Assembly: GCA_949948745.1 (NCBI GenBank)
Contig: CATLHA010000006.1
Location: 1-64,000 of the forward strand
Length of the DNA: 64,000 nt
Source: an uncultured Caryophanales bacterium
GTDB taxonomy: Bacteria; Bacillota_I; Bacilli_A; RF39; UBA660
Reading direction: 5' to 3'
The position numbers were made by a program, and so were the translations under genes. The notes below the pieces were generated by a model. That model was not told where the DNA came from. It made no database searches and saw nothing but the letters and a program-made list of their open reading frames with translations. Positions 34,066-39,770 of the stretch are shown piece by piece; the first letter of the stretch is position 1; each line of letters begins with the position of its first letter.

Positions 34066-34959
34066 ATGAATAATAAACTAAATAATATGATTCAAAGGTT
34101 TTTATCAAATACAGATGCAAAAGATGAAGATGAATTAAATGAAAAACTACAGGAATTTTTGGAAAAGTATAATAATGGTGAAGTTGAGTATGAAAATACA
34201 GAATTAGATGATGCTTATGAACTATTAGAAAAGGCAGAAAATGCAAGAAGTAAAAAACAAGCAATTAAGTATGCAAAAGAAGCATATGAACTTTGTCCTG
34301 CTTGCTTTGAATCTATTTTATTTCAACAAAATCTGGAAGAGAATTCTTTAAAGAGAGATGAGCTTCTTGATGAGGGTTTAAAAATAGAAAAGGAAAGATT
34401 GGAAAAAGAAGGCTTTTTTAGTAAAAAGAATATTGGACAGTTTTATAGTATTTTTGAAACACGTCCTTATATTAGGGGGTTATATACCAAAGTTTGCAAT
34501 TTGGTAAATGCAGGTAAATTAACTCAAGCAAGAGATTTATGTAAGGAAATTTTGAGACTTAATGAACTTGATAATATTGGTTCTAGATATATGTTAATGG
34601 CAATTTATGCAATGCTTGAAGATGAACAAGAAACATTAAAATTATCTAGAAAATACCCAGAAAATAATCTAGAAATGTTATTCCCATTATTTGCTTTATA
34701 TTATAAATTGGGTAAAGAAGAAAAGGCTATTTTATATTTACATCGAATCAATGAGCAAAATCCATATTTTTTAAAGTTTTTCAATCATACGATAAAAGAA
34801 AAAGAATTGGAAGAGGCTTCTCGTGGTTATTATAGTCATGGGGATGTATCAGAAATTGTTATGTATGTTACAAATTATAATTTCTTATTATTTTCTATGA
34901 GAGATATTGAAGATTTTGTATTAGAACATAGTAAAAAAGTTAAAAAGGGGAAAAAATAA
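34066..34959 (+). CDS. TPR-like repeat protein
   Basis: Helical repeat character (YELLEKAENARSKKQAIKYAKEAYEL; ARDLCKEILRLNELD). Confidence 0.6.
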   Translation: MNNKLNNMIQRFLSNTDAKDEDELNEKLQEFLEKYNNGEVEYENTELDDAYELLEKAENARSKKQAIKYAKEAYELCPACFESILFQQNLEENSLKRDELLDEGLKIEKERLEKEGFFSKKNIGQFYSIFETRPYIRGLYTKVCNLVNAGKLTQARDLCKEILRLNELDNIGSRYMLMAIYAMLEDEQETLKLSRKYPENNLEMLFPLFALYYKLGKEEKAILYLHRINEQNPYFLKFFNHTIKEKELEEASRGYYSHGDVSEIVMYVTNYNFLLFSMRDIEDFVLEHSKKVKKGKK

Positions 34960-34986
34960 GATACGAGTAAAATTTTATCAGTACAT

Positions 34987-35016
34987 AGTACATGTTTTTA
35001 TAACATGTACTTTTTT
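34987..35016 (+). terminator. Rho-independent terminator
   Basis: gtacatgtt/aacatgtac stem followed by tttttt. Confidence 0.8.
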
Positions 35017-35036
35017 GAGTTTACAAGAAGTTAATA

Positions 35037-35067
35037 TTGCAAAATTCGCCTGGGGGGGGGGTATAAT
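35037..35067 (+). promoter_or_regulatory. Promoter with 10-G homopolymer in spacer (candidate phase-variable)
   Basis: TTGCAA (35037-35042), 19-nt spacer containing G10 (35052-35061), TATAAT (35062-35067). Confidence 0.8.
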
Positions 35068-35102
35068 ATTAATTATAAGGTAGGATGGGAGACTAGAAAA
35101 GG

Positions 35103-38100
35103 ATGGATAGTATTTTGAAAAACTCAAAAACAATACTAAAAGAACATCGTGAAATATTTTTAGTGTGTATTGGAATTTTAATGATAGGAACAGGACTATT
35201 ATTCTATCCATCAAGAGCAGATCCATCTTCTACATTAGCCTTAGGAAATATTAAAGAAACTTTAGAATCTGATGAAGCTTATATAGAACAAGCAAGTATG
35301 GTAGATGATCTTGAAACAGAATCTAAAACAAAGATTACTACAGGAAGTGCTCCATTTGATACAGAATATGGGGAGGAAATAGGAGTAGAATTAAATCCAG
35401 GTGATGATAACAGTCCTAAAAATAGTATTGTTCGTACTTTTGATATTGTAGATTATACAGTAAATTTTACGACAAAGACACAAAGTAATAGTGAAGCAGT
35501 AGCTTTCAAAAATGGGAAAATCTATTTTGAATTTGTTTTACCTTATAGTAGTGAAGAAGCTATTTTTGAAACAGATAAAATGGGATGGTTAGAGAGTAAA
35601 ACAGAAGTAACTTATAAAATACAGGAATTTGATCATGCAAATAGTGATGGAAGTATCTCTAAATGGCAAGTATTAAAGGGAAGTTTTAGAATTGTACCAA
35701 CCGTAGGAGAAGAGACATCAATAGGAAATCATTATAGAGAATTGAATGTATGTATTCGGGTATTAGCATTAAAGAATGGGGAAGAGGTACAACCATACTT
35801 TACTTTCTGGTTACAAGGAAATGATGTATTTCAAGGACAAGATTTTTCTTCTTCAGTAGAAACATGGTACAATGATACATCTTTAATTACATTTAGTAAT
35901 AATAAATGTCAGACACATAAAGATGAAAATGGAGAAGGAATCAAAGAATATAAAACAATTATTCCACCAGAAGTAACAGTAACAGGGGCTCCTAGGTATA
36001 ATATTGATGTGATTAACGGACATTCCTCAGTTAATCAAAAATTAGGAATCTTTGATTTCTCTACAGGAAATGAGGATGCAGCAAATAAAGATAAAGGACT
36101 AGTTACAGGAAGAATGGCAGCTTTTGGAATTCGAATTGAACTTATTGGCAAGACGAAAGAACATGGATTAAGAGGAGTAGAATTACCAAGTGGTGAAATT
36201 ACTTTTGATTTAGAACTATCGACTACCTATAATGGAAAGGATGTATCTAATGATTATAAGACTTTATTATATAGTTTAGATAGTAATAATAACAATAATA
36301 CAAAACAAGATGGTAGGCGTATCAGTACGCAGCATTTATCACTTCCTAATCTTCCACATAATAAAACAACTTCCTTATCATATGAGTATACGAAATGTTA
36401 TGATAGTGGAAATTGGAGTTATGCTATAGAAGAAAATGTTATTCATGTTCAAATTAAAGATTATAAAATAAATCTGAAGCAATTACCGTATGGATTAGCT
36501 GTGAATGGCTCTCCTAATATATATACTTATTATAATCCGAATGAAATATTTAATTATTGGGATATTCAACAAGCTGTATTTTCAACGGGACAGATGTGGA
36601 TAGTACAGGACTTTTTTAATTCAAATGTGAATTCTCAATACTATAATCAAAAAATAGATGAACAATATGGTGAATCAGGATTTAAAGTAACTCTAAAACA
36701 AAAGAATTTTAAATTTTCTAATTCTAATAAAGATATTATTTTTAATAATCAAGTAGTTCAAGATTTATCCTTAGAAAGAAAAGGAAAATTTGAATCAACT
36801 TTGAATTTTACTAAATATAACGCAAACAGTTATAAAGATTTGCTAATAGAAAATGCTGGTGATAACGGTAAAGATGTTCAAATTGCTGGAGAAAAGTTAG
36901 GATTCTATGTGTCATCTTCTCATAATCAAGCAGAAGGACTAAATACTGGTGTTGCCGTAGATTATTTGTCTAAGTGGGATGATATTTTTTTTGATCCAGA
37001 GCGTGTCGTTTCTAATAGTTATATTGTAAAATATTTGTGGGGTGCAAAATCTGATAAAACAGGATGGAATCATTATGGGTTGAAACCAGATGAAGATGGG
37101 TATGATCAGGAGATGAAAAATGCCACAGCTGATGATTTAATTTATTTTGAGTCGTTAGAACAATTAAAGAATGAAGGATATATTCCAGTAGCATTATTAG
37201 AAGAAAGACGTTTTTTGATGTCTACATCATTTAATCTTTTTACTAGTTATATTTATGGAACAGTAAAAAAAGATTGTCCTACTGGGTATACTTATATGAT
37301 CACTTATACAACTCGGGGATGGAATAAAGATAATGTTAAAGATTTAGTGGCTGAGGCAAATGGAATAGAAATTACTAGTCCAGCTGATTATGGAAAAATT
37401 ACTGATGTTATGTATGATACTTATGCTAAAAATAATATACCTTCTCGAAGTGATTCTAGTGTTACAAGTTATGATTCTTATCCTGACTCTTTTAGTGTCC
37501 GTGATGCTATTACATATTCTAGTATAAAAAATTATCAAAAGGCAAAATATAACGAAAGTGGATATGTTTCTGGTAGTACTGGAACAGATGGCGGTGACTC
37601 CTGTTATGTAGCTGATCACTTTATGAATGTTTCAATGTCTACTTCTCAATCAGGATCTAATTCAGATGGTTCTAAAAGAGTTTATGATATGGATGAAAGT
37701 CAAAGAATTGTTGACTATGTAATTCGCCCTTCCATTGTAACTGGATATACCAAGGATGAAAATAAGAAAGACATTACGACTGTAACTGTAGAAGCTACTT
37801 TAGTAAAAGGACTAACTTATATTGAAGGAAGTTCTTATCTAGGAGGAACTTATACAGAATCTAATCGTGGACAAGGTAATATTACTGGTGGAAAAAGTGT
37901 ACAGCCAATTCTTATTTCTAATAGTGATGGAACAACAACTTTAAGGTGGGTATTAGAAAATATAGAATATGTGATGGATAAAGAAGTATTGTTAGATAAT
38001 ATCTATTATTCATGTCAGATAGGAAACTTAAGTAGTGAAGAATTAGATGTTAAGAACGGACAGTTAATTGATACCGTTGTAAAAATTAAGAGTACTTCTG

Positions 38101-39770
38101 ATTATGTAAGAGAATATATTCCAAGTAATAAGAATATTTCAACAACTACAATCCAAATACAAAAGAGTAATTCTTTATCTTTATTTAATTCAGCAGATAA
38201 AGTCTCTAATGAAGTAGAAGATGGGATAGGATTTTTAACATCCTATAAGAATAATTCGAATAGTCCAACATCTACAATTTTAGTGAATGGACTTCCATAT
38301 CATGGAGATGGAGTATCTTCTTTTCATGGAGATTTGTATGTAACAGAACTTAGTGTAGGAAGTCCAAAGGAAGAAGAACATAGTTTGGTAGTTAATCAAT
38401 TTAACTTTTACTATACAACGAATACAGCTTATCGAGGAAAGACAAGTAGTGAATTAGAAAGTGAAAACTTTTTAGATACTAATCTATGGAAGAAATTAGA
38501 ATTAGAAGATATGAATGGAAATAGTAGTAATCCAAAGTTACCAAATGCAAAAGTAAAGATACCAGATAAATTTTCACCAGTATTAATTGTTGCGGTAGGA
38601 GATTTACCAGGACAAGGGACGATTGAAATGCATGTAACCTTAGGATTATCAGAAACTTCCCCAGGAGATTATTTAGCGAACTTTTCATCTCAAGGAAAAT
38701 TATCTTCTTATTCTTATGCTTACTTTATCAGTAGAATGTTAGAAGGAAAAGTATGGATAGATAGGAATCGAAACGGATTACAAGGAAGTAATGAAGAAGA
38801 ATTATCAGGAGTTAATGTTATTTTAATGAAATTAAAAGATGGTGGAGATAAGAGTAAGAAAAGTGACTATGAAGAATATTTACTTAACTCCAAGAAAGTA
38901 GTAGTAGAAACAGGAAAACAGATGGATGTGGCAAGTGGAAGTATTTCTAGTTATGAAAGAAGTTTTCCATCAACAGGAGAGGAAGTATTTTCTGATAGTG
39001 GATCTTATCGATTCTATAACTTACCAGTAGGAGTATATGGAGTAAGAATAGAAAGTAGTGATAGGATATCTTTATTAGATTATGAACTGTCTCCTAAGAA
39101 GCAAGGAAGTAATGAAGAAATAGATTCTGATGGAAATGGAACTTATGATACAAATAAAGAATTAGAACATATTTTTATTGAAGGGATTATTATTGATAGT
39201 ATAGAAAATTCCTCTGTTCGCTATTATGAATCAAGATATCATGATGTAGGAGTTTATCCAGTATATCGATTGAGTTTCCAAAAAGTAAAGAAAGAAAACT
39301 TAAAGAGAAGTGTATCAGGAGTAGAATTTTCTCTATACAAACTAAATTGTACCAATCCAAGTCATAATCATGATGAGACAATGATATCAACTAACAAAAA
39401 TCAAGAATGTTTTCAATTTATAAGTGCGGTAGTAAGTAATAAGAATGGAGAAGTGTTATTTAGAAAATTATTAGATGATAGTGAATATCGATTAGTAGAA
39501 ACAAAAGTTCCATTTGATAGAAAGAAACCAGAGGGAGAATGGAGAGTATCTATTAAGGAAGGAGAATATCAAATTCTTACTGTTGGAGATACTTCTACAC
39601 CAGATTTTATTTTAGAAGATGGAGTATGGTTATTACCAAATCAACCAATTACTTTACCAAGTACAGGAGGAATAGGAATTACTATTTTCTATACGATTGG
39701 AATTCTTTTAATACTTAGTTCTACTTTCTTTATTGGATATTTCCTTTATAAGAAAAGAAAAAAATATTGA
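35103..39770 (+). CDS. Large LPxTG cell-wall-anchored surface protein (adhesin-like, SdrD_B/Cna_B-type domains)
   Basis: C-terminal LPSTGG + TM + KKRKKY; GKVWIDRNRNGLQGSNEEELSGVNVILM (SdrD_B-like); VSGVEFSLYKL (SpaA/Cna_B-like). Confidence 0.88.
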   Translation: MDSILKNSKTILKEHREIFLVCIGILMIGTGLLFYPSRADPSSTLALGNIKETLESDEAYIEQASMVDDLETESKTKITTGSAPFDTEYGEEIGVELNPGDDNSPKNSIVRTFDIVDYTVNFTTKTQSNSEAVAFKNGKIYFEFVLPYSSEEAIFETDKMGWLESKTEVTYKIQEFDHANSDGSISKWQVLKGSFRIVPTVGEETSIGNHYRELNVCIRVLALKNGEEVQPYFTFWLQGNDVFQGQDFSSSVETWYNDTSLITFSNNKCQTHKDENGEGIKEYKTIIPPEVTVTGAPRYNIDVINGHSSVNQKLGIFDFSTGNEDAANKDKGLVTGRMAAFGIRIELIGKTKEHGLRGVELPSGEITFDLELSTTYNGKDVSNDYKTLLYSLDSNNNNNTKQDGRRISTQHLSLPNLPHNKTTSLSYEYTKCYDSGNWSYAIEENVIHVQIKDYKINLKQLPYGLAVNGSPNIYTYYNPNEIFNYWDIQQAVFSTGQMWIVQDFFNSNVNSQYYNQKIDEQYGESGFKVTLKQKNFKFSNSNKDIIFNNQVVQDLSLERKGKFESTLNFTKYNANSYKDLLIENAGDNGKDVQIAGEKLGFYVSSSHNQAEGLNTGVAVDYLSKWDDIFFDPERVVSNSYIVKYLWGAKSDKTGWNHYGLKPDEDGYDQEMKNATADDLIYFESLEQLKNEGYIPVALLEERRFLMSTSFNLFTSYIYGTVKKDCPTGYTYMITYTTRGWNKDNVKDLVAEANGIEITSPADYGKITDVMYDTYAKNNIPSRSDSSVTSYDSYPDSFSVRDAITYSSIKNYQKAKYNESGYVSGSTGTDGGDSCYVADHFMNVSMSTSQSGSNSDGSKRVYDMDESQRIVDYVIRPSIVTGYTKDENKKDITTVTVEATLVKGLTYIEGSSYLGGTYTESNRGQGNITGGKSVQPILISNSDGTTTLRWVLENIEYVMDKEVLLDNIYYSCQIGNLSSEELDVKNGQLIDTVVKIKSTSDYVREYIPSNKNISTTTIQIQKSNSLSLFNSADKVSNEVEDGIGFLTSYKNNSNSPTSTILVNGLPYHGDGVSSFHGDLYVTELSVGSPKEEEHSLVVNQFNFYYTTNTAYRGKTSSELESENFLDTNLWKKLELEDMNGNSSNPKLPNAKVKIPDKFSPVLIVAVGDLPGQGTIEMHVTLGLSETSPGDYLANFSSQGKLSSYSYAYFISRMLEGKVWIDRNRNGLQGSNEEELSGVNVILMKLKDGGDKSKKSDYEEYLLNSKKVVVETGKQMDVASGSISSYERSFPSTGEEVFSDSGSYRFYNLPVGVYGVRIESSDRISLLDYELSPKKQGSNEEIDSDGNGTYDTNKELEHIFIEGIIIDSIENSSVRYYESRYHDVGVYPVYRLSFQKVKKENLKRSVSGVEFSLYKLNCTNPSHNHDETMISTNKNQECFQFISAVVSNKNGEVLFRKLLDDSEYRLVETKVPFDRKKPEGEWRVSIKEGEYQILTVGDTSTPDFILEDGVWLLPNQPITLPSTGGIGITIFYTIGILLILSSTFFIGYFLYKKRKKY

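Follow-up and report, generated by a model that had tools for sequence, protein, structure and literature searches.

Poly-G promoter spacers as a probable length-based expression switch for surface proteins in uncultured Bacilli

The promoter region of a large surface protein gene was analysed in a window of 64,000 nucleotides from an uncultured, gut-type Caryophanales bacterium, and the features read there are summarized in Table 1. The 1555-aa protein contains SdrD_B, SpaA and Gram_pos_anchor domains and has an LPSTGG sorting signal at its end, and its ATG lies 35 nt after the TATAAT hexamer. A sequence-only reading had placed at this locus a TTGCAA hexamer, a 19-nt spacer with ten consecutive Gs, a TATAAT hexamer and the LPSTGG reading frame, and all of these positions were confirmed by direct reading. 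It had also remarked that the G10 run stands out in a low-GC genome. The counts bear this out, as the GC content of the window is 29%, the tract is the only run of G or C longer than five in the 64 kb and the first-order Markov expectation for runs of this length is about 0.008. For the 1.80-Mb genome the first-order Markov expectation for runs of G9 or longer is about 1.1, against 16 observed. The terminator upstream of the promoter closes the unit of a TPR protein, and a sigma-70 promoter with 16-18-nt spacing was not found in 34900-35130. Due to these two results, the tract promoter is taken as the sole visible promoter of the 1555-aa gene.

Table 1. Features of the tract promoter and of its gene in the window
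Feature	Position	Strand	Basis or remark
Intrinsic terminator, 10-bp stem then T run	34987-35011	+	one found against a mean of 0.0 in shuffles
GTTTAC-N5-GTTAAT, half-sites 11 bp apart	35019-35035	+	directly upstream of the -35
-35 hexamer TTGCAA	35037-35042	+	direct reading; TTG invariant in 16 aligned cassette copies
Non-G part of spacer, aattcgcct	35043-35051	+	cassette copies carry AAA close to its 5' end and finish in CCT
G10 tract, candidate slippage site	35052-35061	+	3' part of the 19-nt spacer 35043-35061
-10 hexamer TATAAT	35062-35067	+	direct reading and alignment of copies
Transcription start (predicted)	near 35074	+	downstream of the -10
Likely ribosome-binding site GGGAG	35087-35091	+	direct reading
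Surface protein ORF, 1555 aa, ATG at 35103	35103-39770	+	secreted and LPXTG-anchored by domains

The source genome of the window (G000, a draft of 96 contigs) was searched by pattern for further tracts. It holds 17 runs of at least eight Gs, of which 16 belong to one cassette, in each case with the Gs on the coding strand. The consensus of the copies is TTGnnAAA, 3-4 nt, CCT, G8-G12 and a TATAAT-like hexamer, with the start codon usually 35-44 nt beyond the -10 and with GGAG or GGGAG at a position comparable to that of the window in most of the other copies. Besides the window copy the layout is repeated at least 16 more times. The genes following the cassettes usually encode secreted, wall-anchored or pilin proteins, including VWA/DUF285/InlB-repeat, prepilin-like and LPXTG-type proteins according to domain and sorting-signal matches. 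The copies are not all intact. At C79 the contig stops just past the tract, at C16:18 a further copy is truncated inside the tract by the contig end, and at C9:10544 and C16:12210 the -10 is displaced by 2-5 nt. The tract is broken in one decayed copy (C47:1101, GGAGGGAGGGGA) and lost in another (C47:11964), while C48:11974 reads G10-A-G4 and has 24-nt spacing. No -35 could be recognised at the 17th G run (C32:6587), although a VWA gene begins 114 nt downstream of it. The LPXTG gene of the window also has a decayed copy, downstream of an FtsK-like ORF (C68:2670-3236); it keeps only residues 1141-1270 and 1494-1554, with 91-94% nucleotide identity to the window gene.

The half-site element next to the -35 is also part of this repeated context, as GTTTAC-N5-GTTA(A/C) lies upstream of most cassette copies in G000. 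The pattern GTTTACNNNNNGTTAM gave 15 matches in this genome against 6 for its reversed control, and 14 of the 15 were at tract promoters or decayed copies. The repeat was not seen in the tract-promoter copies read from other species. The half-site pair is a possible regulator site, and its 11-bp spacing would suit a regulator of the OmpR family, which is offered as a lead rather than a finding.

The layout was also searched for in related genomes. In the genus, G8 followed within 5 nt by TAnAnT was present in 13 of the 17 species, mostly before genes of secreted proteins. The flanks vary by species (for example ggctt, tcct, acgct, ttcaagg, cgacac, ccgtt) and the TTGnnn-Gn-TAnnnT layout is preserved; the CCT before the tract, constant in the G000 cassette, was thus rejected as a universal mark. 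At the family level, G8-TAnAmT gave 384 matches in 62 of the 291 genomes, distributed over 43 genera, while the reversed pattern gave 2 matches and C8-TAnAmT gave 7 in the same 291 genomes. Among relatives bearing a name, the layout was seen in uncultured Bacilli and in MAGs that carry the label Clostridia, Tenericutes or Bacillota. G000 itself may be placed in order RF39 or close to it.

Comparison of near-identical copies revealed differences in the number of Gs. The tracts were G8 and G9 in G003 (59/60 identity downstream), G10 and G11 in G013 (59/60 downstream), and G8 and G11 in G011 (47/47 downstream). The nearest homologue found of the window protein (in another species, G015; 57.7% identity over 1540 aa) has G12 with TATAAT. 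The neighbouring genes of the window were not found beside it, due to which it is termed a homologue and not a positional orthologue. Strain variants of the window locus were searched for in viral contigs and none was found; a single looser viral match was rejected as no -10 follows its tract. A cultured case was observed in another phylum, where Gordonibacter pamelaeae (NC_021021.1) and Gordonibacter sp. 28C (NZ_PPTR01000019.1) carry TTGAAA-N9-Gn-TATCAT before a secreted protein, with G10 against G11 and flanks identical at 60/60 positions upstream and 59/60 downstream.

The spacing of the tract promoters was analysed for 149 promoters of 42 genomes, grouped into 56 genome classes; an earlier spacing count using the window only with loose hexamers had been too noisy. 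Tract length decreased with the length of the non-G spacer (slope -0.72 +/- 0.15, p = 2e-5 over the 56 classes; Spearman -0.43, p = 0.0009), where the p-values, as all those for spacing, are optimistic since the genomes are related. The tract and ordinary sets compared below also use different hexamer rules. As the tract shortens when the rest of the spacer lengthens, it is the total spacing that is held. In six genomes, the TTGACA/TATAAT pairs of ordinary promoters lacking a tract were spaced by 17 nt in 67 of 148 cases and by 19 nt in 4, and in G000 alone by 17 nt in 16 of 27. Tract promoters outside G213 (n = 114) were spaced by 19 nt in 50 cases, 18 nt in 28 and 17 nt in 10, and the two distributions differ with a likewise optimistic Mann-Whitney p = 4e-14. 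Tract promoters form a large natural data set on the evolution of promoter spacing, lying 2 nt off the usual value and compensating for their flanks.

These results were compared with the poly-G switches described earlier. In Neisseria meningitidis porA, 11G gives high surface expression, with about 2-fold lower expression for 10G and about 13-fold lower for 9G (PMC3639595). Here too a G tract between -35 and -10 sets the spacing and the controlled product is a surface protein, but one stereotyped cassette recurs before many genes, the most frequent spacing exceeds the optimum by 2 nt instead of matching it, and the host, which has LPXTG proteins, belongs to an uncultured lineage of Bacilli. 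Treponema pallidum tp0126 shares the poly-G position between -35 and -10, and its transcription, like that of porA, is best at a total of 17 nt; for T. pallidum, unlike here, a single promoter of this layout is described in that paper, and the tract of tprL occupies another part of its promoter (PMC7864442). The present case agrees with this class in that the tract lies between -35 and -10, ordinary host promoters are near 17 nt by sequence, and downstream domains and sorting signals indicate surface products with predicted exposure. A further case is PPA1880 of Propionibacterium (Cutibacterium) acnes, a putative adhesin of a Gram-positive organism whose putative promoter spacer holds G11, G13 or G15, corresponding to 18, 20 or 23 nt, and which was secreted by the 18-nt strain only and not by the 20- or 23-nt strains (PMC3224659). 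P. acnes differs in being a high-GC actinobacterium described locus by locus, and its homopolymer variation was judged slow and clade-linked (PMC4746626). Homopolymer length also sets transcription of the surface protein opc of N. meningitidis, whose tract unlike the present one is poly-C and encompasses the -35 sequence (PMC7864442). Since the ordinary promoters of the host are at 17 nt, and considering the porA, tp0126 and PPA1880 data, 19 nt is most likely a weak or off setting whose expression would be raised by loss of one or two Gs.

The largest number of copies was found in G213, a genome of 1.3 Mb with 76 poly-G promoters, many of them in tandem arrays repeating about every 1.0-1.1 kb (for example C39:1-11408 and C13:29500-37910). 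Where copies were read, the genes behind them encode paralogous proteins that begin with a signal or anchor segment and in many cases are about 330 aa long; a Pfam search of one array protein gave no match. The tract was exactly G9 in 53 of 54 distinct copies despite 11 flank variants in the spacers, and G173 had G9 in 7 of 7 counted copies. This near-invariance counts against simple free slippage, which should spread the lengths. If variants arose with the frequency estimated for porA, about 2e-5 (PMC3639595), the uniformity would require that selection acts, that gene conversion often spans the tract or that slippage is rare, and 19 nt in G213 and G173 is either a selected poised off-state or a working setting. 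It is conceivable, and put forward tentatively, that dozens of paralogous surface genes would each have a poly-G promoter poised at 19 nt with one or a few expressed per cell, slippage of 1-2 Gs selecting which, and that stabilising selection rather than free drift would set the tract, giving surface variation throughout the family.

Overall, the poly-G tract is probably a length-based expression switch for the surface protein. The tract would be the adjustable portion of a sigma-70-type promoter, in which slipped-strand mispairing would add or remove Gs and so change the distance between -35 and -10. Under such a model G10 (19 nt) is probably the weak or off setting, G9 (18 nt) would be intermediate and G8 (17 nt) probably the strong one, so that strong production of the LPXTG protein would be confined to a minority of cells. 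The same cassette would give an independent switch to each of at least 16 further genes, most of which encode surface proteins, and the surface make-up could vary in a combinatorial manner; the benefit would probably lie in evading antibodies or phages, or in choosing between adhesins. The anatomy, the repetition of the cassette, its association with surface genes, the differing tract lengths of near-identical copies and the 2-nt shift from ordinary promoters were observed in the sequences. The occurrence of slippage in living cells, the identity of the on and off states and any benefit are the parts of the model that we infer. MutS, which lowers slippage rates and in this respect counts against the model, is present in G000 and in 16 of 17 genomes of the genus; loss of mismatch repair was rejected as a cause of unstable tracts on this basis. 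The earlier proposal of phase variation is strongly supported by the comparison, through the recurrence of the cassette at surface genes, the differences in G number and the G12 homologue. Its framing as a single locus missed a system extending over the genome and the family, and the G9 uniformity in G213 speaks against simple free slippage. The assignment of 19 nt to low expression and 17 nt to ON made in that proposal fits the 17-nt promoters of the genome and the published porA and tp0126 data (PMC7864442).

The main competing explanation is a fixed structural spacer, in which a 19-nt, partly A-like G:C helix would be the working geometry, possibly together with an activator bound immediately upstream; its length would be held constant by selection and no switch would exist. 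The mode of 19 nt, the near-invariant G9 in G213 and G173 despite changes in the flanks, the compensation of flank length by tract length, the conserved GTTTAC-N5-GTTA upstream in G000 and the marked bias of the coding strand to G rather than C all agree with it. Total spacing nevertheless scatters over 17-21 nt in G000, 18-22 nt in the CAOJDX MAG and 17-20 nt in G011, near-identical copies differ by 1-3 Gs, the poly-G promoters studied elsewhere obey a 17-nt rule (PMC7864442) and the upstream repeat is confined to G000 among the copies read, which together make this explanation unlikely.

The remaining alternatives are weaker. The conserved promoter and 5' region, G tract included, may instead serve recombination or gene conversion among paralogous surface genes, comparable to the G-quadruplex next to Neisseria pilE, without any role in spacing; promoter, 5' UTR and signal-peptide region are indeed repeated across copies, a number of contigs stop at the tract or close to it, and decayed copies exist. 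This is considered highly improbable, as the tract sits between -35 and -10 with a length compensating the remaining spacer, a lone G10 run would not be expected to fold into an intramolecular quadruplex that is stable, any long repeat is expected to give contig ends, and other species keep the layout while the flanks differ. An invertible promoter switched by site-specific inversion, with an incidental G tract, was suggested by the perfect 11-bp inverted repeat around the promoter (35012-35022 / 35120-35130). Around random positions of the window a comparable pair occurs in 3.2% of cases, and of 13 other cassette copies tested a single one has such a pair; as the repeat is not kept in the copies, inversion was rejected. 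An artefact of sequencing or assembly (poly-G from two-colour chemistry) or chance has next to no probability either: the assembly is a draft of 96 contigs and a few tracts lie at contig ends, against which stand one exact context over many genomes and genera (384 matches versus 2 reversed) and several tracts deep within contigs, including the 210- and 518-kb contigs of G298.

Poly-G promoter switches have been described mainly at scattered loci of pathogens. The present uncultured Bacilli, of commensal type, have a copied cassette over many surface genes, up to 76 in one small genome. Searches outside most subscription journals found no papers linking RF39 to phase variation, describing phase-variable poly-G promoters in MAGs of Bacillota or treating homopolymeric repeats in uncultured gut commensals; host group, cassette form and scale appear new, while the mechanism is already known from porA and tp0126. 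If the switch is real, large heritable cell-to-cell variety of the surface is predicted in organisms never cultured, and it should be readable from existing metagenome reads.

Tracts were also observed before genes of other kinds. G13 and G12 between TTGACA and TATAAT are conserved in two species (G007 and G014) before an ORF of 390 aa that gives weak coiled-coil matches and has no obvious surface protein character. In G011 (C14), G9 and G8 tract promoters precede genes for a GT99-type glycosyltransferase and a KdsB-like cytidylyltransferase, and glycans may also be switched in this species.
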